In this document: one piece after another, positions 16,017 to 58,609 of the stretch
Layout: each line of letters opens with the position of its first letter
Position numbering within the stretch: the stretch's first letter is position 1
Assembly (NCBI RefSeq): GCF_024623785.1
Contig: NZ_JANKBZ010000028.1
Location: 1 to 64,000, forward strand
Length of the DNA: 64,000 nucleotides
Direction of reading: 5' to 3'
Source of the DNA: Archangium lipolyticum
Lineage (GTDB): Bacteria > Myxococcota > Myxococcia > Myxococcales > Myxococcaceae
Notes under the pieces: generated by a model
Told to the model about the DNA's origin: nothing
Databases searched by the model: none
The model's input: only the letters and a program-made list of their open reading frames with translations
Translations under genes and position numbers: made by a program

Positions 16017-16190
16017 TCGTTTCCGCAGCACCTCCTCCCACGGGGCGGCACCGCCGCATGCCTCGCGGGAGGAGGGGGCCTTCGCGGGCCCAACACAGCA
16101 ACGGTGGAGCCCGTGCCGGTTCCATCCTTCCCACCCGGTACCTCATACGGCCGGAGTGGTGGGTCCACTGAGGACCCGGAAAGTCAGCCC

Positions 16191-19580: not shown

Positions 19581-19746
19581 CCTGACGACCTCGGCTTCGT
19601 CCTAGGGGCAGCCCACCACACGGGCCCTGGCCCCCGCTGTACCGCCGGAAACGCACGAACAGTGGAGCCTCCGGCCTCTGTTCCGTATGTACCATGTCAC
19701 CTTGTCTCTGGTGTGTGCCGCCCGGTGGGGGTACAAGCGAGGCGCC

Positions 19747-20361
19747 TTGGCCAGGAAGAAGTTCATCGCGATCGCGGGCAACATCGGGGCCGGGAAGACG
19801 GAGCTCACGTCCTTCCTCTGCCGGAAGTACGGCCTCACTCCCTTCTTCGAACCCAATGAGGAGAATCCCTACCTCGCCGACTTCTACAAGGACATGAAGA
19901 CCTGGGCGTTCCGCTCCCAGCTCTTCTTCCTCACGGCCAAGTTCCGTCTCCATCGCCAGCTCGAACGCTCCCCTGGCACCGCCCTGCAGGATCGCACCCT
20001 GTATGAGGACGCGGAGATCTTCGCCAAGAACCTCTACCGGCAGCGCTACATCGACAAGCGCGACTGGGGCATGTACCGGGAGCTCTACGAGTCCATCTCC
20101 GAGACGCTCGCCCCGCCGGATCTGATGATCTACCTGCGGTGTCCCGTACGGACCCTGCGCCAGCGCATCCGTCTGCGCGGCCGGGAGATGGAGCAGGACA
20201 TCCCCACCTCGTACCTCAAGCGGCTGAACGACCTGTACGAGGAATGGTTCACTGGCTACAAATTGTCCCCCATTCTCGTTCTCCCGACGGACAAGCTGGA
20301 TTATCTGACCAACCTGGTGGATCGCGTGGACCTCTTCCGACAGATCGAGAAGCACCTGTGA
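19747..20361 (+). CDS. Deoxynucleoside kinase (deoxyadenosine/deoxyguanosine type)
   Basis: The enzyme phosphorylates deoxynucleosides at the 5' hydroxyl in nucleotide salvage. It has a P-loop near the N-terminus (AGNIGAGKTEL), the substrate motif DRTLYEDAEIF and the LID region RIRLRGREMEQ. TTG 19747 gives 204 residues starting MARKKFIAIAGN, the usual N-terminus. An upstream ATG at 19687 would add 20 unrelated residues. The stop overlaps the next gene by four bases (GTGA), so translation is coupled. Confidence 0.88.
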   Translation: MARKKFIAIAGNIGAGKTELTSFLCRKYGLTPFFEPNEENPYLADFYKDMKTWAFRSQLFFLTAKFRLHRQLERSPGTALQDRTLYEDAEIFAKNLYRQRYIDKRDWGMYRELYESISETLAPPDLMIYLRCPVRTLRQRIRLRGREMEQDIPTSYLKRLNDLYEEWFTGYKLSPILVLPTDKLDYLTNLVDRVDLFRQIEKHL

Positions 20362-21530
20362 AGGAGGTCTACCTCGTCGCCAGCTCTCGCGGTTCGCCTG
20401 TGTCCCTGGAAGCGCTGCGCGCCTCCTTCGAATCCGAGGAGATGACCTTCCTCCCCGGAGCGGACGGCAAGGGCTTCAACGTGGAGGCCGAGGGCGTCCG
20501 CGTGGAGGTCGTCTTCGAGCAGCGGCCCACGCCCCAGGAGTGGACGTCGGACCTGTTCTCCGGCAGCGAGCCCGCGTTGTCGTCGCTCGGCCGGGCCCGG
20601 AGCTTCTACCGCTTCGCCTTCGAGGTGGGCTCGCCCCAGCCCACCGTCCCCGTCTTCGTGGCGCTGATGTGCGCCCGAATCCTCCTGCTGCACGCGGAGG
20701 GTGTGTTGGTGGACATCACCTCGTCCAAGGTCCACGAGGCCGAGGACGTGGCGGAGCTCACCGAGCTGGACTTCGACATCCGCGACCACCTCAACCTCCA
20801 CGCCGTGGAGGTCATCGAGGGGGATACCCCCCTATGGGTGCACTCGCACGGCATGGAGAAGTTCGGCGCGAGGGATCTGGAGATCTTCCACCTGGGCGAG
20901 CAGGACCTGCTTCCCGCCGAGGCCTTCCTCCACGAGCTGTGCACGGACCTGGCCTTCGGGCAGGTGCCGGCGCTGCGCACGGAGATGGGAACCAGCGAGG
21001 GGCAGACCTTCATGCTGGTGCCCTCGGAGGAGGCGCGGACGAACCTGCTCGGGGTGCCCCTGGAGTCCTTCGAGGGCCATGAGGGCCTGTTCCTCACCGT
21101 GGTGTCGCCGCAGGGGCGGCACAACACCGCGGAGCTGCTGAGGCCCTTCCGGGAGCGCTTCGCCCAGGAGCCGACCGAGCGCACCGAGTCCATGCAACGG
21201 GAGACCCAGGCGCTCCTGCCGGCCTTCAAGGCGCGCTTCCTGCGCCGGGGCCTGATGGAGCCGCTCACCTTCGTGGTGCGCTCCCCCTTCGAGACCCACC
21301 CGGAGGGCAATACGGTGACGGAGCAGCTGTGGATGGAGGTGCTCTCCTGGGACGAGGGGATCGTGGTCGGCCGCCTGGTGGACGGGGCAGTGCACACCAC
21401 CGAGTGGCGCAAGGGCGCCCACGTCGAGGTCCCCGAGGCCGAAATCAACGCGCTGGCGCTCAGCCGCGAAGGCCGTACCCTGGACGAGGAAGAGGTCCGT
21501 GCCCTGCTGAATGCCGAGCGACCGATGTAG
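20358..21530 (+). CDS. DUF2314-like protein
   Basis: The 390-residue product has no sure function. The C-terminal 80 residues (LWMEVLSWDEGIVVGRLVDG, then an ADVEVP-like hydrophobic strand) resemble DUF2314 domains, which recur in myxobacteria and near stress or toxin genes. The first 280 residues are acidic and unassigned. The start GTG 20358 overlaps the kinase stop, with GAGAAG upstream. An FHA regulator gene follows after 30 bases. Confidence 0.72.
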   Translation: MKEVYLVASSRGSPVSLEALRASFESEEMTFLPGADGKGFNVEAEGVRVEVVFEQRPTPQEWTSDLFSGSEPALSSLGRARSFYRFAFEVGSPQPTVPVFVALMCARILLLHAEGVLVDITSSKVHEAEDVAELTELDFDIRDHLNLHAVEVIEGDTPLWVHSHGMEKFGARDLEIFHLGEQDLLPAEAFLHELCTDLAFGQVPALRTEMGTSEGQTFMLVPSEEARTNLLGVPLESFEGHEGLFLTVVSPQGRHNTAELLRPFRERFAQEPTERTESMQRETQALLPAFKARFLRRGLMEPLTFVVRSPFETHPEGNTVTEQLWMEVLSWDEGIVVGRLVDGAVHTTEWRKGAHVEVPEAEINALALSREGRTLDEEEVRALLNAERPM

Positions 21531-21560: not shown

Positions 21561-23264
21561 ATGCCCGCCCTGTTGCTCCTCTCCGGCCCCTCCGCCGGCC
21601 TTCGCTACGAGGTCGTAGCGGAGGCGACCATCGGCCGCAGCCCCTCGTGTGAGATTCCCCTCCCCGAGGACGACCAGATGTCCCGCCGCCACGCGCGCTT
21701 CGCCGTGGTGGATGGACAGGTGCGCCTGACCGACCTGGGCTCGCGCAACGGCACGGCCGTCAATGGCGAGCGCATCTCCGGCGAGGTGGTGCTCCACCCC
21801 GGCGATCGCGTCCTGGTGGGCAAGACGACGGTGCTCGTGGAGCCGCTCGGCGCGGCCGCGCTGGTGGGCTCGGCCCCGGGTGACGCGAGTCACCTCCCCA
21901 TCGAGGAGGTGCTGCCGCACGTGGGCGCGGAGGCGGCGCTGTACTCGGCGGGGGCGGCGCTGCTGGGCGCCACCAGCGAGGCCATGGTGCTGCGGCTCGC
22001 CGCGCAGGAAGCGCTGCATGCGCTGCACGCGGACGCGGCGGCGGCGCTCCTCGGGAGCATCAAGGGGTTGCTCACCGCGGCCGTGGTGGGCGCGCCCTCC
22101 GTGGAGGTGCCCCGCGACATGGCCCTCACCGCGCTGGAGCGCTCCGAGCAGGGACGCACGGCCAATGCCCTGTGCTCACCGCTGGTGGCCTCGGGCGGGC
22201 AGCCCTTCGGGTTGTTGTACGTGGAGCGCTCCGAGCCTCCCTTCTCCGAGGCCGATGGACGGCTGGCGGCCATGCTGGGACGGCTCGCGGGCGAGGCCTA
22301 CGTGGCGGTGCGCTCGCGCGCCGGGGCACCGCCCCGGGTGGACATGGCCGGCAACTCGCGCCCCTTCCGCAAGGTGGTGGAGCAGGCCCGCCGCGCCGCC
22401 GCCAGCGCCGCGCCCGTGGTGATCTCCGGCGAGCCCGGCTCCGGCAAGAGCCTGTGCGCGGGTTACATCCACTCGCGCTCGCCCCGGGCCCTCGGCCCCC
22501 TGGTGCGCGTGGACTGCCGGGACGCGGCGGCCTCCCTGGAGGAGGTGCTCTTCGGACGCTCCAGCGGCTCCGGCCAGCCTCCGGTGTCCTCGGCGCTGCT
22601 CGTCGCGGACGGGGGCACGCTGGTGCTGCACCACGTGGAGGCCCTCCCGCACGCCATGGCGGAGCGGCTGGCCCGGCTGCTCGCGCGCAAGACGGCGCCG
22701 GCGCGGCGGGGCGGCGAGGAGCCCGTGGACTTCCGCCTCATCGTCACCACCAGCGCCCCGCTTCACGTGCTCGCCGCGAAGGGGGAGGTGGAGGCCTCGC
22801 TGGTCCGGCAGCTCGCGGGCATCGAGCTGCAGGTCATCCCCCTGCGCGAGCGCCGCGCCGACGTCCCCATGCTCTTCGAGCTCTTCGCCACCCGGGGCGC
22901 GCGTGCCACCCGGATGGGACCTCCCGTGCTCACCCCCGAGGCCCGGCGGTTGCTCGTGGACTACGACTGGCCGCACAACGTGCGTGAGCTGAGCCTGCTC
23001 GCCGAGCGGCTCGCGCAAGTGCACGCCGGCTCGCAGATCCACGCGCTGAACCTGCCGCCGGAGATCCAGCAGGGCAGTGCCTCGTCCTCGCCGCTCACCC
23101 TCCAGGAGCGCGTCACCCGGCTGGAGCGCGACGCCATCGCCGAGGCCCTGCGCACGGCCGGCGGGAAGAAGATCGTCGCCGCCCGGATGCTGGGCATCAG
23201 CCGGCCCACGCTGGACAAGAAGATCGAGGACTACGGCCTCACCGTGGCGCGGCGGCGCGTGTGA
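21561..23264 (+). CDS. FHA-GAF-AAA-HTH regulator with degenerate ATPase core
   Basis: The 567-residue protein is built like an NtrC-type regulator but departs from it. It has an FHA phosphothreonine-binding domain at 1-97 (IGRSPSCEI, SRRHAR, DLGSRNGTAVNG), a GAF-like sensor at about 125-255, an AAA core at about 265-490 and a Fis-type HTH at about 525-565. Walker A (GEPGSGKS, near 290) is intact. The GAFTGA loop that contacts sigma-54 is absent, and Walker B reads LVLHHVE instead of LFLDEI. It may therefore bind DNA and phosphoproteins without activating sigma-54 polymerase. Confidence 0.85.
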   Translation: MPALLLLSGPSAGLRYEVVAEATIGRSPSCEIPLPEDDQMSRRHARFAVVDGQVRLTDLGSRNGTAVNGERISGEVVLHPGDRVLVGKTTVLVEPLGAAALVGSAPGDASHLPIEEVLPHVGAEAALYSAGAALLGATSEAMVLRLAAQEALHALHADAAAALLGSIKGLLTAAVVGAPSVEVPRDMALTALERSEQGRTANALCSPLVASGGQPFGLLYVERSEPPFSEADGRLAAMLGRLAGEAYVAVRSRAGAPPRVDMAGNSRPFRKVVEQARRAAASAAPVVISGEPGSGKSLCAGYIHSRSPRALGPLVRVDCRDAAASLEEVLFGRSSGSGQPPVSSALLVADGGTLVLHHVEALPHAMAERLARLLARKTAPARRGGEEPVDFRLIVTTSAPLHVLAAKGEVEASLVRQLAGIELQVIPLRERRADVPMLFELFATRGARATRMGPPVLTPEARRLLVDYDWPHNVRELSLLAERLAQVHAGSQIHALNLPPEIQQGSASSSPLTLQERVTRLERDAIAEALRTAGGKKIVAARMLGISRPTLDKKIEDYGLTVARRRV

Positions 23265-39901: not shown

Positions 39902-40007
39902 CCCTCTCCCTCCGGGAGAGGGTCGGGGTGAGGGTATCGAGGGCCCCGTGTATGCCCCCTCTCCCTCTGGGAGAGGGCTGGGGTGAGGGTCGGCCGGGAG
40001 AGGGTTG
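39902..40007. repeat. Cluster of REP-like palindromic repeats
   Basis: Two full units, CCCTCTCCC-N3-GGGAGAGGG followed by CGGGGTGAGGG or TGGGGTGAGGG, lie at 39902-39934 and 39957-39989. A third partial GGGAGAGGG lies at 39996-40004. Each unit is a 9-base stem with a 3-base loop. This is a dispersed repeat type known from many high-GC proteobacterial and myxobacterial genomes, and it may also stop transcription after the lipoprotein gene. Confidence 0.8.
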
Positions 40008-40138
40008 GTAGGGGTCCAGCGGGGACAAGGGCGTACCCAATCGCCTGCCAGTCGCCCAGGGGTACACGGTGTAGCCGCGCACGGAAACGAAGGTGTGCTG
40101 GCTCACGGCGATTTACGGGTGGTACCGTCCTATCCGGT

Positions 40139-41017
40139 ATGGCGCAGAACGAGACGGTCGTCACAGTCATCTCGAAGATTTCGGAGCGGCCGGTCAATCT
40201 GGATGCGGCGCTGGTGGTGATCTACGGCCTGGATCTGGGCCGGAAGTACGAGCTGGCGAAGGAGGAGATCCTGATAGGGCGCTCCTCGAAGGCGGACATC
40301 CAGGTGGATCAGGAGTCGATCAGCCGGAACCACGCGTGCATCACGAACACGACGAGGGGCGTGCACATCAAGGACCTCGAGTCGACGAACGGGACGTTCG
40401 TGAACGACGAGGCGGTGCAGGGGGAGAAGGCGCTGCACAACGGGGATCTGGTGAAGATCGGGAGGACGATCTTCAAGTACATCGCGGGAGGGAACATCGA
40501 GGCGGCGTACCACGATGAGATCTACCGGCTGACGACGATGGACGGGCTGACGCAGATCTACAACCGGAGGTACTTCGAGGAGGCGCTGGAGAGGGAGGTG
40601 TCGAGGTCTCGGAGGTACGAGCGAAGCCTGGCGCTGGTGATGTTCGACGTGGACCACTTCAAGCAGGTGAACGATCGGTACGGGCACCTTGCGGGGGACT
40701 ACGTGTTGAAGCAGCTGGCGTCGACGCTGCGGACGAAGATCCGGCGGGAGGACGTGTTCGCGAGGTACGGGGGGGAGGAGTTCGGGCTGTTGCTGCCGGA
40801 GATCGACGTGGTGGGGGCGGTGAAGCTGGCGGAGAAGTCGAGGAAGCTGGTGGAGAAGCAGCGCTTCGAGTTCGACAAGAACGTGATCCCGGTGACGATC
40901 TCGCTGGGGGTGGCGGTGCTGGAGGCGGAGCACAGGGATCCAGAGGATCTGAAGCGAGCGGCGGACGCGAAGCTGTACGAGGCGAAGGCGTCGGGCCGGA
41001 ACCGGGTCTGCTCGTGA
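40139..41017 (+). CDS. FHA-GGDEF diguanylate cyclase
   Basis: The protein makes cyclic di-GMP from two GTP. ATG 40139 gives 292 residues: an FHA domain at about 25-115 ([29 protein letters not shown]) and a GGDEF domain at about 130-290. The active motif is GGEEF (near 211-215), and RRED five residues upstream fits the RxxD inhibitory site. FHA input suggests control by Ser/Thr kinases, which are abundant in myxobacteria. Its last codons overlap the next gene by four bases. Confidence 0.92.
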
Positions 41018-42208: not shown

Positions 42209-45200
42209 ATGAATCATTCACATCCATTCTTGTATTGCTGGCGTGCCTTTCACAGCCGTGGCCGATGGGGGGCGGGGTTGGTGGCGTTCCTGTGGCTCGT
42301 GGGCCTGCTGAGTCCCGTGACCTCTCATGCTCAGGCGAAGTACGAGATCTTGCAGTTCGTGAGAGAGAGCGACAATCCGTCCGCCTATGGGGATCTGTAC
42401 AGAGCCTATTCGTGTGTCTGTCCAGGGGAGGAACCCCAGACCTGCTACAACTGCTCGAGCCGCTCCCCAGCATGTCCCGGGCAGACTGTCGGCGATTGCT
42501 CGCTGGAGAGCAAGACGCAGTGTCTCGGGGCCGGTTCCTATAACATCCGTAACAAGCCGAGGACGACCTATGTCAGTTCCATCGACGCATGTCCGGGGGA
42601 TCAGGAGTGGGCGTGTAGACGCGATGCGGACTGCTCTACTTGTGGCAAGTGCGTTGGGAATACCGTGACGCTGTCGTTGGGCGGTGGTTCGGCCACGGTG
42701 CTGAAAGGGGAAGGCACGCACTGCGAATACCCGCCGGAGGTGTGTGGGGACAAGTTCGATAACAACTGCAATGGGGCAGTGGACGAGGGCTGTGCGGTCG
42801 TGGGGAGCGATGGTGGAACCGACGGAGGCTCGTCCTGCGGTGAGGAGCTCTGCGGGGACGACGTGGACAATGACTGTGACGGGGAGGTGAACGAGGATTG
42901 CGCGCCGGTCGAGCCGGATGGTGGGGCTCCGCCTTCCTGCAGCGGGCCGAAATGCAGATGCGACGGCACGAACCTGTTCGATCCCGTCAATATCGTCACG
43001 GGTACGAGCTACGAGCGGATCAAGGATGTGGAGGTCTTCGATGAAGTGGCGACGCTGAGCTTCGAGCGGACCTTCAGCTCGCGGGGGGACGAGTGGGTGC
43101 ATGACTCGCCGCTGGTGGGAGTGCCCAAGCCGTTTGGGGCCAGCCCCGGCAACGCGGGCTCGGTGGAGTGGTGGCACAACTGGCTGAGCCTGGTGGTGGA
43201 GCACCAGCAGCACTGGAGTGTGCGGGACAGGGACGGGCGGCTGCTGCGCTTCACTCCCTGCGCGGGGGTGCCGTGCCAGGCCTCCCTGACGGAGGGGACG
43301 CCCAGCCACCATGAGCGCTTGTGGCGGACGGCCTCGGGCTACGAGCTGGTGCAGGCGGATGGGTCCCGGCTCGTCTTCGAGGGACGCTTCGTGGCGGCGC
43401 CGGGTGGGCGCAACCGCTACTTCCTCTCGCGCGTCGTGTCATCGACGGGGGTGGACCAGGCGTTGCTCACGTATGCGGTGCCGCCCGTGGGGGGTTGTCC
43501 CCAGGGGGCGTCCGGGAGCAGTCCGGGAGTGCCCTATCTGTCGTCCGTGCGGACGGCGGCGGGGCGCATGTTCAGCCTCAGCTACCGCGCGCTGAGGCGA
43601 GCGGACGGGGCACTCGAGTGCGTCATCACCGCGGTGAACCTGGGCGGTGCGGCGTCGGACGGGGGCATCGGTGAGCCCGAGGTCCAGTACACCTACGCGG
43701 GCAATGGAGACGAGCGGCCCGGGCGTATCGCCAACGCCCGGTATCGCTACCGGCTGGATGAGTACCTGTATACGTCGGGAGAGTTCCGGCGTTCGCAGAT
43801 GGGGGTGGAGCTGGTCCGGCACACCTACGGAGCGGACAGGCGGGTGGGGTCGGTGGAGGCGGAGGGGCATGCCGTGTCCATCTCCTGGGATCCGACGGTA
43901 GGCAGTTGCCAGCTGGGCTCCAACTGCTGCGGCAGGGTGCCCCAGGTGAGACAGGCAACGGACTACGGGGTGGGGCGAGGGGATGGAACGGAGGGCTCGG
44001 CCTTCCTTACGTCCACCTACGAGACGCTCTCCAACTACGGACAGCAGATGGCCCCGCGCCTGTACCAGACGACGGAGTCATGTACGCCTGGCGAGGCGTG
44101 CAGTCCGGGCTCGGAGCGCACGGAGTGGGCGTGCTCGTCGGCCGGCACACCTGGCCATGAGGCGGCGCGCAAGGACAAGCGGGACAACTGGGAGGTGTAT
44201 GGCTACTCGCTGCCCACGGACACGCAGCCACGGCTGGAGCGGACCCGCGTGAAGCGTGGCGCCTCGGACATGCTGGGCACGGGAGCGCTGGAGGAGCAGA
44301 CCTTCAGCTACACCTACGGTTCCAATGGAGAGCAGTTGCCGCGGACCATCGAGGAGCGGAGCGTGTTGGGGGGCTCGGGAGAGCACAGGCGTACGTTGAA
44401 TGTGTACGAGGCCGGCAGCAACCGGAGGAAGGCCGTCATCGAGAGGGGCTGGACCCGGGAGCGCGCCAGCGATGGCTCCTGGACGACGAAGCCGCGCCTC
44501 GTGGGGACGTTCTCCTTCACCTCGCATGTGTCCCTGGGGGTGACGACGCCAGACCCGCTGGGCCGGACGATGGAGGTCCATGGACCCTGCATCGTCACGC
44601 GCGAGGACGCCACGGATTGCGAGCTGTCCGATTACCCGCTGACCCGGTATTCCTACCACGCCAATAGCAGCACGGTGGGAGTGCATCAGCGCAACCGGCT
44701 GGCGTCGGTGGAGGTCTACCCGACCCGCACCACCACGAAACCGTTGAAGACACTGTTCAGCGAGTACGACAAGCGCGGGCACGTCACGAAGACGACGGAG
44801 CCGAACGGGGTGTTGACCACCCTCACCTACGAGGAGGATCGGCTGACCGAGAAGGAGGTTGGGGGCCAGCCGAGTACCTATTACTTCTACGCGGATGGCC
44901 AGCATCTGACCGCCGTGCAGTACCCCTCGAAGAGTGTCGAGGTGTTCTGCTACCGGAAGGGGACGGGAGAGACCTGTCATGGAGGGACGCTGACGGACAA
45001 GGTGCAATGGAAGGCGAAGGCTGCGCTCCAGGACGGTACCGGGTGGACGGAGCGGGTGGTGTATGCGTACTGGCCGGACGGGACGCTGAAGGAGGAGCGC
45101 TACCTGTCGAAGACGGGCACGACGGTGGAGACGCGGCGGGTGTTGAAGTACGCGGCGGACGCGCACCGCAGGCCCACGTGGCAGAAGTGGGGCGAGGGCG

Positions 45201-48184
45201 TGGGGAGCTTCAGCTCGGCGAAGTCCTTCGATGGAGCGGACAACCTCACGGGCCTGGGACTGCCCTTCAACGATCCGCCCGCCTGGTGTGGAGGAGTGAG
45301 GCGGGGCGTGAGCCCGGAGTTGGACGGGACGCCGCTGTCCCAGCTGTGCTCCTCGATGGCGTATGACAGGGCCAACCGGCTGGTGCAGGTAGACGAGTAC
45401 CCGGCGGAGGGCGTGGCCCAGCGCACGCTGTTCCAGTACGACGCTCAGGGCAACGTGTCTGGGGTGAAGACGGGATGCGGGGCCACGGACAGCTTCGACA
45501 CCTGTGTGCAGCCGGCCGCCACGTATACGTACGATGACTTCGGCAAGGTGGTGGAGGTCTCTCTTCCGCACGCGGATGGCCCTGTGCGCTACGCGTATGA
45601 TGCGCTGGGCAACGTGGTGGTGAAGGAGACGGAGGCCATGCGCCAGGCTGGCGAGTACCTCGCCTTCACCTATGACATGCTCTCCCGGTTGAAGACGGCG
45701 GAACGTCGCTACTCCCGCCCTTCGACGGGGATCGATGTCCTGTACCGCCTCGTCTATGACGCGGACGGGGGAGCCATTCCACGCGGGTGCCCGAGCCCGT
45801 TGAATACGCTGGGCCGGGTGCGCTACCGGGAAGACTCCTTTGGAAAGACCTGGTACCAGTATGACGAGGAAGGTCGCGTCGTTCTCGAGTCCGGTGTGCG
45901 TGCGGGCACGTTGGCGTGTGGTTCCGCGGCCAATGCCAACCTGACGACTGCCTATAGTTACACGTCTAGCGGCAACCTCGCATCGGTGACGTATCCGAAC
46001 GGACGCAAGGTGACGTACACGTATGGGACGGGCGGCAACGAGGACCGGGTGGCGGCCATCGAGATGACGCTGCATGACGGTACGAATTGGACGACCAAGC
46101 CCCTGCTGCTGTTGAGCGACGTCACCTGGGAGCCGTACGGCGGGCTGCGGGGCTACACGATGAACCACCTCACGACGAACACGGTGAGCAGGGTGGAGTA
46201 CGCTCTGGGGGACAATGGCTCCGTGGCGCCCGCGGGCTGCTCGACGGCCATGCCGTCCGCGGCGGGCTCGGACCTGACGGGCCGGCTGCGCAGCCTGCGC
46301 GTCACTTCGCCCATGGAGAGCGGGGGGAGCAAGAACATCTACCAGCGCACCTACACGTGGAAGGCGGACCAGGTGGTGCGCACCGACACGTGCCTGCTGG
46401 GAGAGACGACGCCGAAGACGGAAACGTACAGCTATGACAGGACGCTGCGGCTGACGGGAGCGAGCCGGCCAGCGGGCAACTTCGACGCCACGGGTGGCGC
46501 CTTCGGCTCACGCACCTACGGGTACGATGGCCGAGGCAACCGCACCTCCATGAGCAGCGACGGCGTCGCCTACGATCTGAGCTACGCGGCCTCGCCTCGA
46601 GGGGACAGACTGACGGGCTGGAGCTCTTCCACGACGGGAAGCCTCCTGGGGTACTCGCTGGCGTATGATGTGGATGGACGCGTGACCCGGAAGGAGGGGG
46701 CTCGGAAGATGGATGGGCAGCCGACGCACGTGATGAGCTTCGCGTATGGCCCATCGGTGGGAGTAGCCACGGAGACGGTCTTCCGGGCGGTGAATGTGAA
46801 TGGAGGCTTCTACAACTACTACTACGACGCGAAGGGGCGTCGCCGGGCGAAGGTCTACCCCGGGGGAGCCTCGGACGAGTACTTCCACGACGTGCGGGAC
46901 CAGTTGCTGGTGGACCGGGGAAGCAGTGGCACCACTCCGCCGGTGGCGCACTACACGCAGGACGACTACGTGTGGCTGGACGGGCGCCCGGTGGCGATGG
47001 TGCGCGGCAAGCTGAGCAACACGTGGACGCGGCTGTCGGACACCTCGGAGGACTGCTCACGCAACGGTGAGGTGGCGGCGTGTGGGGTGTACTTCCCGGT
47101 GACGGACCACATTGGCAAGCCCGTGCTGATGCTGGACGGCAGTGGCCGTGTTGCGGGGACGGCGGACTACGACCCCTTCGGCCAGGTCAACCGGGTAGCG
47201 CTGAACGCGGAGACGGAGCACCCGCTCAACACCACGGGTAGTGCCTCTACGCTGGCGGAACTGCGGCAGCCCACGGACTCGTCCGTGACGGTGAAGATGC
47301 GGACGCTCTTCCACCTGCTGGACACGAAGGGCGTGGGCCATGTCGAATTGATCGACGGAGACAACGGAACGAGGCTGGTGGGCCCTTACGATAGAACCGG
47401 ACAGGGAGCTGTCTGGTCGGACTGGGCACAGCCGTCAATGGGACGCATCAAGGTGAGCCTTGCTCGGTACGGGACCGCTGGCGCTTCCTCAGCATCCGGT
47501 GTGGTGCTGGAAGGATACGAGTACCAGCGCTACCAAGCGGGGGCGCAGCCTTTCTGGACGCCGCTGCGTTTCCCAGGACAGTACTACGATGCAGAAACGG
47601 ACCTGTTCGAGAACTGGAATCGCTACTACGATCCAAGCATTGGCAGGTATTTGCAGGCAGAGCCGTTGGCGGCAGAGTCGCTATATCTCATAAAGATGGC
47701 GCGACAGGGGCATGGCGTTTTTGCGTACTCCTATGCTGGGAGCAATTCAATTGCATTCGTGGATCCCGATGGAAGGAGCCCTATCTTCGTCGCCATTGGC
47801 GTTGGTTTGGCTGGTTATGCTGGCTACTCCTATTGGAAGGGCAAAAAGTTGGCAGAAGACACTCTGTTTGATGCAGAGCGCTCGGGATTGCCTGGACTGC
47901 ACAATGGCGTCGCCGACGCGTATAGACACTGCCTTTGGAATTGCAGAATGACTCGCCAAATAGGCGGCTACCCTGCTTGGTTTATTGGTCTTGGTCACGA
48001 GTTCATTGACAATCGGGGAGGGCCGGAGGACGAGCGAAAGATGGATTTGAACAACAACTTGTGTGGTCGCACTTTGGGAGTAATGTCTCTTGAGACGTGC
48101 GAGAAAGCATGCCGCGATGCGGCCTTGTCAGACGACTTGACTACCATCACGCCCGCGAATGATCCGCCTTACCAGAGGTACTAA
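42209..48184 (+). CDS. Secreted RHS/YD-repeat protein with C-terminal toxin-like domain
   Basis: The 1991-residue protein has a signal peptide (residues 20-43, ending SHAQA), a Cys-rich N-terminus and two MopE-like metal-binding repeats (DKFDNNCNGAVDEGC and DDVDNDCDGEVNEDC, about 180-232). A DUF6531-type start of the RHS shell follows (DPVNIVTGTSY), then many YD repeats and the RHS core (RYYDPSIGRYLQAEPL, about 1805-1820). After DPDGRSP comes a hydrophobic segment and a tip with DAYRHCLWNC, GHEFIDN and MDLNNNLCGR, resembling the DUF6973 group seen in polymorphic toxins. GC falls sharply in the tip. Confidence 0.9.
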   Translation: MNHSHPFLYCWRAFHSRGRWGAGLVAFLWLVGLLSPVTSHAQAKYEILQFVRESDNPSAYGDLYRAYSCVCPGEEPQTCYNCSSRSPACPGQTVGDCSLESKTQCLGAGSYNIRNKPRTTYVSSIDACPGDQEWACRRDADCSTCGKCVGNTVTLSLGGGSATVLKGEGTHCEYPPEVCGDKFDNNCNGAVDEGCAVVGSDGGTDGGSSCGEELCGDDVDNDCDGEVNEDCAPVEPDGGAPPSCSGPKCRCDGTNLFDPVNIVTGTSYERIKDVEVFDEVATLSFERTFSSRGDEWVHDSPLVGVPKPFGASPGNAGSVEWWHNWLSLVVEHQQHWSVRDRDGRLLRFTPCAGVPCQASLTEGTPSHHERLWRTASGYELVQADGSRLVFEGRFVAAPGGRNRYFLSRVVSSTGVDQALLTYAVPPVGGCPQGASGSSPGVPYLSSVRTAAGRMFSLSYRALRRADGALECVITAVNLGGAASDGGIGEPEVQYTYAGNGDERPGRIANARYRYRLDEYLYTSGEFRRSQMGVELVRHTYGADRRVGSVEAEGHAVSISWDPTVGSCQLGSNCCGRVPQVRQATDYGVGRGDGTEGSAFLTSTYETLSNYGQQMAPRLYQTTESCTPGEACSPGSERTEWACSSAGTPGHEAARKDKRDNWEVYGYSLPTDTQPRLERTRVKRGASDMLGTGALEEQTFSYTYGSNGEQLPRTIEERSVLGGSGEHRRTLNVYEAGSNRRKAVIERGWTRERASDGSWTTKPRLVGTFSFTSHVSLGVTTPDPLGRTMEVHGPCIVTREDATDCELSDYPLTRYSYHANSSTVGVHQRNRLASVEVYPTRTTTKPLKTLFSEYDKRGHVTKTTEPNGVLTTLTYEEDRLTEKEVGGQPSTYYFYADGQHLTAVQYPSKSVEVFCYRKGTGETCHGGTLTDKVQWKAKAALQDGTGWTERVVYAYWPDGTLKEERYLSKTGTTVETRRVLKYAADAHRRPTWQKWGEGVGSFSSAKSFDGADNLTGLGLPFNDPPAWCGGVRRGVSPELDGTPLSQLCSSMAYDRANRLVQVDEYPAEGVAQRTLFQYDAQGNVSGVKTGCGATDSFDTCVQPAATYTYDDFGKVVEVSLPHADGPVRYAYDALGNVVVKETEAMRQAGEYLAFTYDMLSRLKTAERRYSRPSTGIDVLYRLVYDADGGAIPRGCPSPLNTLGRVRYREDSFGKTWYQYDEEGRVVLESGVRAGTLACGSAANANLTTAYSYTSSGNLASVTYPNGRKVTYTYGTGGNEDRVAAIEMTLHDGTNWTTKPLLLLSDVTWEPYGGLRGYTMNHLTTNTVSRVEYALGDNGSVAPAGCSTAMPSAAGSDLTGRLRSLRVTSPMESGGSKNIYQRTYTWKADQVVRTDTCLLGETTPKTETYSYDRTLRLTGASRPAGNFDATGGAFGSRTYGYDGRGNRTSMSSDGVAYDLSYAASPRGDRLTGWSSSTTGSLLGYSLAYDVDGRVTRKEGARKMDGQPTHVMSFAYGPSVGVATETVFRAVNVNGGFYNYYYDAKGRRRAKVYPGGASDEYFHDVRDQLLVDRGSSGTTPPVAHYTQDDYVWLDGRPVAMVRGKLSNTWTRLSDTSEDCSRNGEVAACGVYFPVTDHIGKPVLMLDGSGRVAGTADYDPFGQVNRVALNAETEHPLNTTGSASTLAELRQPTDSSVTVKMRTLFHLLDTKGVGHVELIDGDNGTRLVGPYDRTGQGAVWSDWAQPSMGRIKVSLARYGTAGASSASGVVLEGYEYQRYQAGAQPFWTPLRFPGQYYDAETDLFENWNRYYDPSIGRYLQAEPLAAESLYLIKMARQGHGVFAYSYAGSNSIAFVDPDGRSPIFVAIGVGLAGYAGYSYWKGKKLAEDTLFDAERSGLPGLHNGVADAYRHCLWNCRMTRQIGGYPAWFIGLGHEFIDNRGGPEDERKMDLNNNLCGRTLGVMSLETCEKACRDAALSDDLTTITPANDPPYQRY

Positions 48185-51577: not shown

Positions 51578-54500
51578 GTGTCGGCGCAAGACGGGTCGTT
51601 GAGGAATGGTCTGGCTGAGGTGCGGGCGCGTCTGACCGCTGCACTTTCTCAGCGGTTGGGAATTGATGCGCGTACGCTCGACGTGTGCGAGCGCTTCAGC
51701 CGGTATGGGCTCGACTCACTGAAGGCCACGGGGTTCATCGCCGAGGTCGGTGCGATGCTCGGGCGCTCGTTGTCTCCCACACTCGTCTGGGAGTATCCAA
51801 CCCTCGAGTCCCTGGCCCGGTATCTCGCCGGAGAGCAGGGTCCCTCGGCCGCGCGGCCCATTTCCCGTGCTTCTTCGGCGGATGAGCCCATCGCCATCGT
51901 CGGTCTGGCATGCCGCTATCCCCAGGCACCGGATCCCTCTGCGTTCTGGCGTCTGCTCGCGGGTGGGCGTGATGCCATCACGGAAGTCCCTCCCGAGCGG
52001 TGGGACGCCGAGCGGCTCTATGATCGCGACCTCTCCACGGCCGGCAAGGCGAACACCCGCTGGGGTGGCTTCCTCGAGCGGGTGGATGGGTTCGATCCCC
52101 TCTTCTTCGGCATCTCGCCCAAGGAGGCGCTCCACATGGATCCGCAACAGCGGCTCATGCTGGAGCTGACCTGGGAGGCGTTGGAGGACGCGGGGATCGC
52201 CGCGGAGCGCCTGCAGGGCTCGCCCACGGCCGTTTGCTTCGGGGTGATCTGGACGGATTACGAGACGCTGTTGCAGCGGCTCGGTTTGCGGCGCATCTCC
52301 CAGCACACGGCGACCGGGTTCCACCACAGCATCATCGCCAACCGCGTTTCCTATGTGCTGGGTCTCCGGGGCCCGAGCCTCGCCATCGACACGGCGTGCT
52401 CCTCCTCGCTCGCGGCGGTGCACCTGGCGTGCGAGAGCCTGCGCAGGGGCGAGTCGACGCTCGCCCTCGCGGGCGGCGTGAACCTGAACATCGCGCCCGA
52501 CAGCACGGTGGGCATGTCCAAAGTTGGTGCCCTCTCGCCCGATGGGCGCTGCTTCACCTTCGATGCGCGCGCCAATGGGTACGTGCGCGGCGAGGGGGCG
52601 GGCGTGGTCGTGCTCAAGCCCCTCTCCCTGGCGATCGCGGATGGCGATCCCATCTACTGCGTCATCCGCGGCGGCGTCATCAACAACAACGGCGGCAGCA
52701 ACGGCCTCACCGCGCCCAACCCCAAGGCCCAGGAGGAGATGCTCCGCCAGGCCTATGCGCGCGCGGGCATCGAGCCCTCCGAGGTGCAGTACGTCGAGGC
52801 GCATGGCACCGGAACGCAGCTCGGAGACCCGATGGAGGCCCGGGCCCTGGGCGAGGTGCTCGGAGCGGGGCGGCCCGCCGACAGGCCGCTGCACATCGGC
52901 TCCTGCAAGACGAACATCGGCCACCTGGAGGCCGCCGCGGGCATCGCGGGGTTGATCAAGGTCGCCCTGTCCATCAAGCACCGCGCGCTCCCACCGAGTC
53001 TCCACTTCGAGATTCCCAACCCGCACATCCCCTTCGCGGAGCTGCGTCTGGAGGTCCAGCGCACCCTCGGGCCCTGGCCCGAGCCGGAGCGGAAGCTCGT
53101 CGCGGGAGTCAGCTCCTTCGGCTTCGGCGGCACGAACTGTCACGTCGTGGTCGAGGAGCCGGACGCGCCCCGGGCGGAGCTCGTGCCCCTGTCGGGCGAG
53201 ACTCCGGAAGCCCTTCGCGAGGCGGCGCGGCGGCTGCTCGAGCGCCTCGACGGCCCCGGGGAGCTGGTGCCCCTGTCCGAGCTGTGCCGCTCGGCCGTGG
53301 CCCACGTCGGCGGACATGCGCATCGCCTAGCGATGACCGTCCGCTCTCGAAAGGAGCTCCGGGAGCACCTCACGGGCTTCCTTCGCGGTGAGCCCAGGGC
53401 GGGGCTGTCGACGGGGCAGGTGGAGTCCGAGCACGCCCGGAAGCCGGTCTTCGTCTTCTCGGGGCAGGGCTCGCAGTGGCCCGGCATGGGCCGGGCGCTG
53501 CTGCGGACCGAGCCGGTGTTCCGGGCCGCGTTGGAGCGGTGCGATCGGCTCGTCCGGGAGCACCTGGGCTGGTCCCTGCTGGCCGAGCTGAGCGCCGATG
53601 ACGCGGCGGCACGGCTGGGGCGCATCCACGTCGCCTTCCCCGCGGTCGTGGCACTGGAGATCGCGCTGGCGGCGCTCTGGCGCTCCTGGGGGATCGAGCC
53701 CGCCGCGGTGGTGGGCCACAGCATCGGCGAGGTCTCGGCCGCGCACGTCGCGGGCATCCTGAGCCTCGAGGACGCCATGCGTGTCATCTGCGCCCAGGGG
53801 CGGCTGCTGAGCCGGCTCAGTGGCCGGGGCGCGATGGGGCTCGTGGGGCTTTCCTGGGAGCAGTCCGCCGAGCTCCTGGCCGGTTACGAGGGCCGGCTGT
53901 GCCGCGCCATCGACGCGAGCGTGGACTCGACGGTGCTGGCCGGTGAGCCGGACGCGCTCGCCGAGGTGTTCGCCACCCTGCGGCGGCGAGGCGTGTTCTG
54001 CCGCCAGGTGGAGACCGACGTGGCGGTGCACAGCCCGCAGGTCGAGGTGCTGCGCGGCGAGCTCTCAGAGGCCCTGCGGGGACTCCGTCCCGGCCGCGCG
54101 CTCATCCCCATTCTCTCCACGGTCACGGGCTCGCCGCTCGAGGGCGAAAGCTTCGATGCTGCCCACTGGGCGAAGAACTTCGCGGAGCCCGTGTTCTTCA
54201 CGGGCGCGCTCTCCCACGCGCTCCGCGAGGGGCACCGCACCTTCCTGGAGGTCGGCCCGCACCCGATCGTCAAACACTCCATCGAGTCGACCCTGCGGCA
54301 TTCCGGCCAGCAAGGGCTCGTCGTGCCGACCCTCCGCCGGCAGGAGGACGAGCGGGGCGTGATGTTCGACACGCTGGGGGTCCTGTATGCCCGGGGTCAG
54401 CACGTCCGGTGGGAGGCGCTCTTCACGGGAGGCACGGAGGAGGGGACCGCTCCCGCCCATGAGGAGCCGGTGCGGGTCCTGCCGCTGTCGGCGCGCAGCC

Positions 54501-57500
54501 CCGAGGCGCTGAAGTCGCTGGCCGCGGCCTACCGTGACTTCCTGGGTGACGGCGCGGCGCGGGGCGCGACACTCGAGGACATCACCTACACGGCGGCGGT
54601 GCGGCGGAGCCATCATGCCCATCGCCTGTCGGTGGTGGGCAGCTCGCGGCGGGAGCTGGCCGAGGCACTGGATGCCTTCGCACGGGGCGAGGCCCGTCCC
54701 GGTGTGAGTCAGGGCCGGGTGGGTCCCGAGGGGCGGGCCCGGGTCGCTTTCGTCTTCCCGGGGCAGGGGTCGCAATGGCTCGGGATGGGCCGCCAACTCC
54801 TGCGCGAGGAACCGGTCTTCCGGGCGGCGATCGAGTCTTGCGAGCGGGCGATGCGGCCCCACGTGGACTGGTCCCTCACGGAGGAGCTCGGCGCGGACGA
54901 GCAGTGCTCGCGCCTGCAAGAGATCGACGTCGTGCAGCCGGTGCTGTTCGCGATGCAGGTGGCGCTGGCGGCACTGTGGCGCTCGTGGGGCGTCGAGCCC
55001 GATGCGGTGGTGGGCCACAGCATGGGCGAGGTGGCCGCGGCGCACGTGGCGGGCGTGCTCGGTCTGGAGGACGCGGCGCGGATCATCTGCCGTCGCAGCC
55101 TCCTTCTGCGCCGCATGAGCGGGCAGGGGGCCATGGCCGTGGTGGAGCTCGGCCTGGAGCAGGCCCGCGAGGCGCTGGCCGGCTACGAGGCAAGGCTCTC
55201 CATTGGCGTGAGCAACAGCGCCCGCTCGACGGTGCTCTCCGGAGACACCGAGGCCCTGGAGGATCTGCTGCGGCGGCTCGAGGGCCAGGGCGTCTTCTGC
55301 CGCCGGGTGAAGGTGAACGTCGCCTCCCACAGCCCGCAGATGGATCCGCTGAAGGAGGATCTCCTGCGCGCGCTCGAGGGAATCTCTCCCCAGCGCGCGG
55401 CGGTGCCCATCTACTCCACGGTGACGGGGCGGACGGGCGATGGGAGCGACTTCCATCCGTCCTACTGGGTCAGCAACCTGCGCGAGCCGGTGCTCTTCCA
55501 TGGCGCCGTCGAGCGGCTGTTGGAGGACGGCCACGGCGTGCTCCTCGAGGTGAGCCCGCACCCCGTGTTGCTCGCCCCCATCGAGGAGACACTGCGCGAG
55601 TCGAAGCGGGACGGGCTCGCGCTCGCCTCGCTGCGGCGACAGGCGCAGGAGCGGCGGAGTCTGCTGGAGTCACTCGCGGCGCTGTACGCGCGGGGCGGCT
55701 CCGTCGACTGGCGGCAGCTGCACCCCTCGGGGGGGCGCGTCGTCGCGCTGCCCATGTACCCGTGGCAGCGGGAGCGGTATTGGCTCGTGGACGACGCGGC
55801 GGCCGCTTCACGGCACGTGAGCGCCGCGCGCGAGGGCGGTCCGGGGCATCCCCTCCTGGGTGGCTCGCTCTCCTCATCCGTGCAGCCCGGCACCTACTTC
55901 TGGGAGCGGGCCGTGAGCACGGAGGCGTTCCCGTACCTCTCCGACCACCGCGTGTGGAGTGAGATCGTCTTCCCGGGCGCGGGCTACGTGGAGATGGCCC
56001 TCTGCGCCGGAGCGGAGGTGCTGGGCGAGACGGGGCTCGTGCTCGAGAATGTTTCGCTCAGCGAGATGCTCACGCTCGCGCCGGATGGGGAGCGGAGCGT
56101 GCAGGTGGTGCTGAGCGAGGAGGGCGCGGACCGGGCCTCCTTCCAGATCTCCAGCCGGGCCGCGGGTGACAAGACCTGGCGCAAGCACGCGGAGGGAAGT
56201 CTGCGCCGGGAGGAGGGCGCCGCCCTGGAGCTGACCGCGGCGCCCGGGGTGCTGCGGGAGCGCCTGGAGGTGGAGGTCTCCTCCGAAGTGCACTACCAGC
56301 GCAGGCAGGAGCAGGGCCTCGAGTACGGCCCCGCGTTCCAATCGCTGCGGCAGCTCTGGCGGAGCGCGCGCGAGGGGGTGGGGCGCCTGGAGCTTCCCGA
56401 GCAGGTGTCCTCCGAGAGCGGGGCGTATCGACTCCATCCCTCGCTCCTGGATGCCTGCCTCCAGGTCGCGGTGGAGCTGGTCTCTCCGGCGGAAGCGGTG
56501 CCGGCGAAGGTGGGGACCCACGTGCCGGTGGGGCTCGGGCGGATGCGGCTCCTCCAGCGGCCCGGGCGTGCGGCCTGGGTGTGGGTGAAGGCCCTGGGTG
56601 ATGCGTCCGCGAGCGAGCGGGAGCACGCCTTCGACATCCGGCTCCTGGATGAGCAGGGCCATGTGCTGATGGAGCTCGAGGGGCTGCGGGTCTACAGGCT
56701 CGAGGCGGGCGCCGCGGTACGCAAGGAGCTCGGCGAGTGGACCTACCAGGTGGAATGGGAGGCGCAGCCGCTGCCGGCGGAGCCGCAGTGGACGGCTCGC
56801 TCGCCGGGGAACTGGTTGATTCTCGGCGATGGCGGTGGCGTGGGCCGGCGACTGGCCGCGTTGCTGCGGGAGCGTGGCGAGACCTGCGTGCTCGTTTCCC
56901 CGGGCGAGTCGTTCGGGGACGCGCTGGGGGCGGGAGCGCCTCCGTGCCGCGGAGTGGTGCACCTGTGGAGCCTCGATTGCGCCTCGAATGACGCGCTCAC
57001 GCCGTCGACGCTGGAGTCCGCGCGGCGGCTCGGCACCACCAGCGTGCTGCACCTGGTGCAGGCGCTCTCGCGGGCCGGCTGGAGGGATCCACCCCGGCTC
57101 TGGCTGGCCACGCGCGGCGCGCGCTCCGTCGGCAAGGCGCCGGAGCGGGTCAATGTGGCCCAGGCTCCGCTCTGGGGTCTGGGGCAGGTGCTGGCCCTGG
57201 AGCAGCCCGAGCTGCGCTGCACCCGCGTGGATCTCGAGGGTGACGCGGACGCGTGCGCCCACGCGCTGTTCCGGGAGCTGTCGTCCACGGCGTTCGAGGA
57301 TCAGGTCGCATGGCGTGGTGGCACGCGGCTCGTGGCGCGGCTCGCTCGGGCGGCGGACGCGTTGGCCGCCAGGGATCCGGCGACATTGCTCCGCGCCGAC
57401 GGCACCTACCTCATCACGGGAGGGCTCGGCGGTCTGGGTCTCGAGGTGGCGCGCTGGCTCGTCACGCATGGAGCACGTCACCTGCTGCTGCTCGGGCGCC

Positions 57501-58605
57501 GTGCCCCATCGGCGGAGGCCGAGCGCACGCTCGCGGAGCTGCGCCAGGCAGGCGCCCGGGTGGAGCCCTTCCAGGCCGATGTCGCGATCCCTGGGGACGT
57601 GGCGCGGGCGCTGGCTCGGGTAGACGAAGCGATGCCGCCGCTGTGCGGTGTGTTCCACGCGGCGGGCCTCCTCGAGGACGGTCTGCTGCTCAACCTCACG
57701 GAGGAGCGCTTCGCGTCGGTGATGGCGCCCAAGGTCCAGGGCACCTGGAACCTCCATGCCCAGACGCGTCATCTGCCGCTGGAGCACTTCGTGCTCTTCT
57801 CCAGCGCGACCTCCCTGCTGGGCACCCCGGGTCAGGCGAACTACTCCGCGGCCAACGCGTTCATGGATGCGCTGGCCCATGCCCGCCGGGCGGAGGGCCT
57901 GCCCGCGCTGAGTATCAACTGGGGCACCTGGACGAACGTCGGCCTCGCGGCGGCGCAAGCCAACCGCGGAGAACGCCTCGAGGCACGTGGCCTGCGTGGA
58001 ATACCGCCGGACAAGGCCCTCACGGCGCTCGGCATGTTGCTGGGGCAGGCCCGTCCGCAGGTGGGCGTGATGGCGCTCGAGCCGAGGCAGTGGCTGGGGT
58101 TCTACCTGGCCGCGGCGCAGTCGCCTTTCTTCACGCGCCTGTCCCAGGAGCGCGCCGGCAGGTCCGCCGTGGAGCCGGGGCGGAGCCGGATCCGCGAGCG
58201 GCTCGAGGCCGTCCGTGGCTCCGAGCGCCGTGCCCTGCTCGAACAGCTCCTGCGCGAGCAGATCGGCGGAGTGCTGAGGATGGCGCCGTCGCGCATCGAG
58301 CCACGCACCCCGCTGGGGAGCCTCGGCCTCGACTCGCTGATGAGCATGGAGATCCGCAACCGCCTGGAGGCGGAGCTGGGGCTGAAGCTCAGCGCGACGC
58401 TGGTCTGGACCTACCCGACGCTCGCCGCGCTCACCCCCTACCTGGCGGAGAAGCTGGGGCTCCCCTTCGAGGACAAGGACGAGGAGCCCCGGGCCGCGGC
58501 GGCTCCTCCACCGGCCGCGCCGAGCGCCGGGCCGGGCAGTGAGATTGACGAGATGTCGGAAGAAGAAGTCGAGCGACTGTTCGCTCAGAGGATGGCGCAG
58601 GGCAA

Positions 58606-58609
<4 letters not shown>
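51578..58609 (+). CDS. Type I modular PKS, loading plus first module: ACP-KS-AT-AT-DH-KR-ACP
   Basis: The 2343-residue protein starts at GTG 51578. Domains: ACP (Ser47 in GLDSL); KS at about 101-530 with the Cys274-His409-His449 triad; AT1 at about 622-925 (GHSIGE, Ser715); AT2 at about 1055-1370 (GHSMGE, Ser1148, with VASHSPQ); DH at about 1424-1700 (His1457, Asp1625); KR at about 1940-2120 (GGLGGLG; B-type Asp in LLEDG); ACP (Ser2253); acidic C-terminal docking helix. Tandem ATs behind an N-terminal ACP match the myxobacterial loading arrangement, where one AT charges the starter ACP and the other loads the extender. No ER is present. Confidence 0.93.

Follow-up and report, generated by a model that had tools for sequence, protein, structure and literature searches.

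An FHA-type relative of sigma-54 enhancer-binding proteins in Archangium lipolyticum with a predicted inactive AAA+ motor

Relatives of the sigma-54 enhancer-binding proteins (EBPs) that lack GAFTGA and act with sigma-70 are already known. Those reported in passages of PMC3162934 and PMC10274813 include TyrR and DhaR of E. coli and HupR and NtrC of Rhodobacter capsulatus. VpsR of Vibrio cholerae, which is also GAFTGA-less, is reported in the corresponding passage of PMC10274813 at sigma-70 promoters, with no requirement for ATP and with a conserved aspartyl phosphorylation site, and an excerpt of PMC10714721 reports that it binds c-di-GMP. Caulobacter NtrC has no GAFTGA because of a deletion in L1, and its Walker A and Walker B residues are reported to be needed in vivo (PMC10274813, in the part that treats this protein). 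It has also been pointed out, with Myxococcus xanthus named, that paralogues without sigma-54 contact have to be allowed for when sigma-54 activators are counted (PMC3162934, in the portion concerned with such counts).

Here we describe such a contact-less paralogue, which is present in 83 of the 96 genomes of its family and is encoded in Archangium lipolyticum (genome size 12.6 Mb) alongside the other members of a set of 58 Sigma54_activat domains. Its gene lies in the window, that is, the whole stretch of 64,000 nucleotides that was analysed. The regulator fits the group of TyrR, HupR and VpsR by the loss of GAFTGA with the AAA+ fold and the HTH kept, and it has this loss in common with DhaR, R. 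capsulatus NtrC and Caulobacter NtrC. However, as far as the passages cited above describe these proteins, it is set apart from TyrR, DhaR, HupR and R. capsulatus NtrC by additional changes in Walker B, the arginine fingers and sensor I, and by its input domains, which are FHA and GAF. Unlike Caulobacter NtrC, it is without the Walker B acids. VpsR resembles it in its AAA+ fold (Z 25.5) but has the c-di-GMP binding and the aspartyl site reported in those excerpts, whereas the Pfam scan of the regulator shows FHA and no receiver domain. Because the FHA input and the losses in Walker B and the fingers differ from TyrR, HupR and VpsR, we regard the protein as a variant on the known GAFTGA-less EBPs, with these features as what is new. 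A literature search by titles and the first parts of abstracts found no paper naming the regulator, an earlier mention in papers on M. xanthus EBPs being possible, and no locus tag for an M. xanthus orthologue was found in the literature.

The open reading frame starts with ATG and has no internal stops, and its G+C content at the three codon positions (0.77/0.53/0.95) resembles that of other genes in the window. The order of the Pfam domains, namely FHA, GAF, Sigma54_activat (residues 263-423; PF00158, E 5.9e-23), AAA_lid_14 and HTH_8, upholds the FHA-GAF-AAA-Fis layout proposed in the initial annotation. The GAF match, at 26.3 bits, is barely over the cut-off of 22.4.

21561..23264, plus strand: degenerate FHA-GAF-AAA+-HTH regulator, 567 residues (open reading frame, Pfam, orthologues, AlphaFold2 model)
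21627..21821, plus strand: FHA domain, residues 23-87 (Pfam PF00498, E 7.8e-19)
21921..22325, plus strand: GAF region, residues 121-255 as modelled (the model, and a Pfam match over residues 193-246)
22845..23090, plus strand: AAA+ lid (AAA_lid_14), residues 429-510 (Pfam)
23118..23234, plus strand: Fis-type HTH (HTH_8) with LGISRPTLDKK, residues 520-558 (Pfam PF02954, E 2.3e-10)

The AlphaFold2 model of the regulator had a mean pLDDT of 89.3 and a pTM of 0.68. Its AAA+ part matched FleQ (Z 27.9, rmsd 2.3, 247 aligned), NtrX (Z 27.5, rmsd 2.0, 240 aligned), PspF (Z 25.7, rmsd 2.4, 238 aligned) and VpsR (Z 25.5, rmsd 2.3, 239 aligned), and its FHA part matched a GarA-type FHA chain (Z 18.9, rmsd 0.9, 93 aligned). 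As modelled, the AAA+ fold is retained.

We located the motor motifs by aligning the regulator against ZraR and NifA; the names arginine finger, switch and sensor, which we take from general usage for EBPs, are applied to the positions that this alignment gives.

22428..22451, plus strand: Walker A, GEPGSGKS, residues 290-297, retained (sequence, orthologue alignment)
22557..22604, plus strand: replacement of the GAFTGA (L1) loop, RSSGSGQPPVSSALLV, residues 333-348 (orthologue alignment)
22629..22634, plus strand: former Walker B Asp-Glu, now His-His, residues 357-358 (sequence, alignment, genome-wide comparison)
22791..22811, plus strand: former arginine-finger stretch, residues 411-417, with E411 and Q417 (ZraR alignment, orthologues)

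The initial annotation had stated that GAFTGA is absent and that His-His stands in place of the Walker B Asp-Glu pair, and both statements are true. The L1 stretch reads LFG-RSSGSGQPPVSSALLV-ADGG, with a replacement loop of 16 residues as against 19 in the intact paralogue L126, and the Walker B stretch reads GGTLVLHHVE. In addition to these losses, both arginine fingers are changed and the sensor-I Asn/His position is S398 in the ZraR alignment. To place these changes within the genome, we read every Sigma54_activat match at E ≤ 1e-10, 58 in total. Of these domains, 57 have the Walker B Asp-Glu pair, the regulator being the sole exception and also the lowest-scoring match, and a GAFTGA-like loop is absent from only two, the regulator and L237. 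The latter belongs to a second FHA-AAA+ protein (L237/L244, G000:C18:69415-69909), in which GAFTGA is lost (LFGGLRSGGEEDDKGTKG) and the Walker B Asp-Glu pair and both fingers are kept. A change from Asn to Asp in the glutamate switch was considered as a further mark of degeneration and dropped, as Asp occurs there in 14 of the 58 domains, the regulator included.

The losses extend throughout the orthologues. At E ≤ 1e-60, orthologues were found in 85 of 145 order genomes, in a single copy in each, comprising the 83 family genomes and two genomes from other families; a search at phylum level (195 genomes, E ≤ 1e-75) matched 90 genomes, none of them outside the class. In a scan of named genomes, whose patterns fitted close relatives, two Archangium orthologues were 82% and 79% identical to the regulator, and the third match was a distantly related EBP with 33% identity across the portion from AAA+ to HTH. 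Each of the 85 genomes contributed a single sequence to the alignment, in which four rows are partial; two duplicate loci of named records were dropped. Identities ranged from 42 to 91%, no stop lay inside any of the 85 matches, and none had GAFTGA, which rules out the frameshift hiding the motif that the initial annotation had raised against itself. Judged from these alignments, the motif losses are neither chance nor sequencing error. The L1 replacement is conserved as a short loop rich in Pro and Ser, which is 16 residues long in 80 of 81 full-length relatives and 10 in the other. The Walker B Asp is found at position 357 in none of the 85 orthologues (Glu occurs there in 2) and the Glu at position 358 in none (Asp in 1); the first arginine finger (411) is Arg in 0/85 and the second (417) in 1/85. 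Position 358 is His in 61 of the 85, and position 357 is His in only 4, with Gln in 31, Arg in 23 and Leu in 20; on this alignment, His-His is not a conserved motif in its own right. Over the 81 full-length rows, positions 357, 358, 397, 398, 411 and 417 all showed more than the median variability of the AAA+ domain and lid (357 at the 86th percentile, 358 at the 65th, 398 at the 100th, 411 at the 62nd and 417 at the 90th). Variability fell below the median at the Walker A Lys, in the 39th percentile, and at the switch position, in the 38th. The two ends of the protein behaved differently from the lost catalytic positions. The FHA residues R26, S41, R42, H44, N63, G64 and N68 were invariant in all 82 relatives covering the domain, and the signature GISRPTLD[KR]K was present in 82 of the 84 orthologues with a C-terminus, in agreement with the earlier statement that the HTH is kept. 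By these counts, the phosphopeptide-binding residues of the FHA domain and the Fis-type HTH are under strong constraint.

To examine where the constraint lies, we compared the orthologues with paralogues that have kept the motor. The paralogue set comprised 15 loci of the order and the class, 10 with all motifs and 5 without. The 10 intact paralogues retain GAFTGA, the Walker B Asp-Glu pair and both arginine fingers, all of which the regulator is without; since they were chosen for intact motifs and are thus a selection, the test is the comparison of domain identities. Mean identity among the 10 was higher in the AAA+ domain (68.9%) than in the FHA domain (57.8%), and this order was reversed among 20 chosen orthologues (57.2% and 65.2%, respectively). 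For pairs with 40-62% identity in the FHA domain, AAA+ identity was 64.7% in the intact proteins and 49.5% in the degenerate ones. L126, L131 and the other intact FHA-type EBPs of the order align with the orthologue profile almost from end to end, and they have the HTH signature in common with the regulator. Three degenerate-looking proteins at class level (L127, L132 and L133) were not accepted as orthologues on account of a weakly supported place in the tree and long branches. L135 (G078) and L136 (G054) group with the intact paralogues but are degenerate, and were excluded from the 10; both are without the C-terminal HTH, GAFTGA and the Walker B Asp-Glu pair. For the FHA-EBP paralogues of G097 and G104, loss of the HTH is indicated by the match ends alone.

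The explanation we consider rather probable, from sequence comparison, is that the regulator is a derivative of an FHA-type sigma-54 EBP whose AAA+ motor no longer works, and that it binds DNA under phosphothreonine control, with no need of ATP hydrolysis or sigma-54 and with the AAA+ domain as a scaffold. From its motifs, it should be neither a sigma-54 activator nor an ATP hydrolase. In the mechanism we propose, the FHA domain would recognize a phosphothreonine carried by a kinase or by a partner protein, the GAF/AAA+ scaffold would pass this on as a change in dimerization or oligomerization, and the changed state would alter binding of the HTH to DNA. The protein may then act at ordinary promoters of the sigma-70 type, blocking or recruiting polymerase without hydrolysing ATP. 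The FHA and HTH functions are those predicted from motifs and folds. If the FHA reading is true, the protein would connect Ser/Thr phosphorylation directly with transcription, with no need for sigma-54. Its presence in most family genomes suggests gene switching by binding and not by ATP use.

A natural short form is consistent with this reading. In G092, the gene that follows the DUF2314 neighbour at the same locus encodes 257 residues from the conserved start. It matches FHA (E 8.8e-17) and HTH_8 (E 1.2e-12), with a remnant of the lid slightly below the cut-off; the GAF domain and the P-loop core are missing in frame, and the lid region has diverged. G092 is one draft assembly, in which a local assembly fault is unlikely, and its short form is the sole full-length match among the matches listed for 142 order genomes, the others being weaker or pieces of longer relatives. 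The initial annotation had predicted a DNA-binding protein gated by phosphothreonine and independent of ATP hydrolysis. The invariant FHA residues, the HTH signature and the G092 form without the GAF/AAA+ core favor that proposal, but DNA binding, phosphothreonine binding and the repressor role suggested there are themselves predictions. Together, the intact FHA-EBPs, the dead full-length form and this one FHA and HTH form make up a comparison set for a natural test of the role of an EBP without its motor. In G076-G079, G086, G091, G122 and G123, the DUF2314 neighbour is kept and no orthologue was found. Because the regulator is absent there while the upstream gene is kept, it is dispensable in these family members, which counts against the explanation proposed here.

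An alternative that we consider unlikely is that the dead subunit joins the rings of active EBPs, or competes with them for sites, and thereby dampens sigma-54 transcription. The retained AAA+ fold and the 57 other Sigma54_activat domains of the genome would permit this, and GISRPTLD[KR]K occurs in 10/10 of the intact paralogues taken but in 0/7 of the other EBPs examined in the same genome, where 57 others exist. Our search of 142 order genomes at E ≤ 1e-90 (the orthologue search covered 145), however, found the HTH-sharing paralogue in 34. All six genomes of this genus are without a match, and of the 85 genomes that encode the dead protein only 24 have one, which reaches the HTH in 20. Because of this distribution, competition with the HTH-sharing paralogue cannot be the general role; the suggestion that the protein antagonizes true activators retains the common HTH signature in its favor and would have to extend to other activators. 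Genomes without the dead protein point both ways. In G076-G079, where it is gone, the paralogue match stops before the HTH (residues 535-537 of 600), which would fit a link between the two, but these genomes form one clade, of which L135 of G078 was read; G091, on the other hand, has the HTH-sharing paralogue and no dead protein. The FHA and HTH relative in G092 also lacks the AAA+ core needed for entry into a ring.

It is also improbable, in our estimate, that the regulator is an ATP-binding but non-hydrolysing switch at sigma-70 promoters, like R. capsulatus NtrC, in which ATP bound at Walker A drives an activating oligomer. Precedent for such a switch is given in the relevant passage of PMC10274813. 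The Walker A glycines are invariant (84/84), 65 of 84 orthologues have the Lys and 64 of 85 the sensor-II Arg, and because the Lys is retained to this extent with below-median variability, a role in nucleotide binding is conceivable. Nevertheless, the Lys is replaced by Arg in 19 of 84 orthologues and the sensor-II Arg is lost in 21 of 85, for the most part in the same rows, the Walker B Asp is gone from all 85, and the G092 relative manages without the AAA+ core. Accordingly, the earlier statement that Walker A is kept holds for GEPGSGK in the regulator itself and not for all of its orthologues.

Finally, it is very unlikely that the gene is a decaying remnant passing from catalytic decay through deletion of the AAA+ core, as in G092, to gene loss, as in the eight genomes that keep the DUF2314 gene, since dN/dS medians in six congeners are 0.25-0.30 in the folded domains and 0.32 overall (rough values at this high G+C), the 85 matches are free of stops across 42-91% identity, and the FHA and HTH residues do not vary.

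For the reading of a phosphothreonine-controlled DNA-binding protein, the neighbourhood offers a candidate target, which is the deoxynucleoside-kinase locus of the regulator itself.

19687..20361, plus strand: deoxynucleoside kinase, with which the conserved gene run begins (neighbourhood comparison)
20358..21530, plus strand: DUF2314-containing protein, 30 bp upstream of the regulator, a neighbour conserved in the family (neighbourhood comparison)

At 76 of 85 loci, the genes for the deoxynucleoside kinase, the DUF2314 protein and the regulator follow one another in this sequence on the same strand. At two further loci, those of the other two families, the kinase directly precedes the regulator and there is no DUF2314 gene; at four, the DUF2314 gene alone lies within the sequence covered, with the regulator about 950 bp away in three of them; and three loci begin at a contig edge. 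The kinase thus adjoins the regulator in 78 of the 85 carriers, and no carrier examined was seen without it. Among the 13 family genomes without the full-length regulator, G092 included, six have a kinase of 76-80% identity and seven have none above 34%. Because six regulator-less genomes keep this kinase, it can persist without the regulator, and the link between the two genes is suggestive but not strict. Tentatively, the regulator may be a lineage-wide phosphothreonine-controlled factor made from a disarmed EBP, with an AAA+ scaffold whose core is dispensable in one relative, that links Ser/Thr-kinase signalling to deoxynucleoside salvage through this locus.

A comparison of 53 aligned upstream regions revealed no DNA site for the regulator. 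In many but not all of these regions, an element, TTGTYTCTGGTG...GGGGTTACAAGC, immediately precedes the start of the kinase near 19745; it is missing in the more distant rows among those listed. It was not accepted as a binding site for the regulator, as G076-G079 have the element and no regulator.

Elsewhere in the window, we noted a ribosomal protein L17 leader at 16103-16159, an FHA-GGDEF protein, predicted to be a diguanylate cyclase, at 39983-41017, a 1991-residue RHS-repeat protein with DUF6973 at its C-terminus at 42209-48184, and a modular polyketide synthase gene at 51578-58609, which is followed by a long open reading frame from 58606 to the window end.
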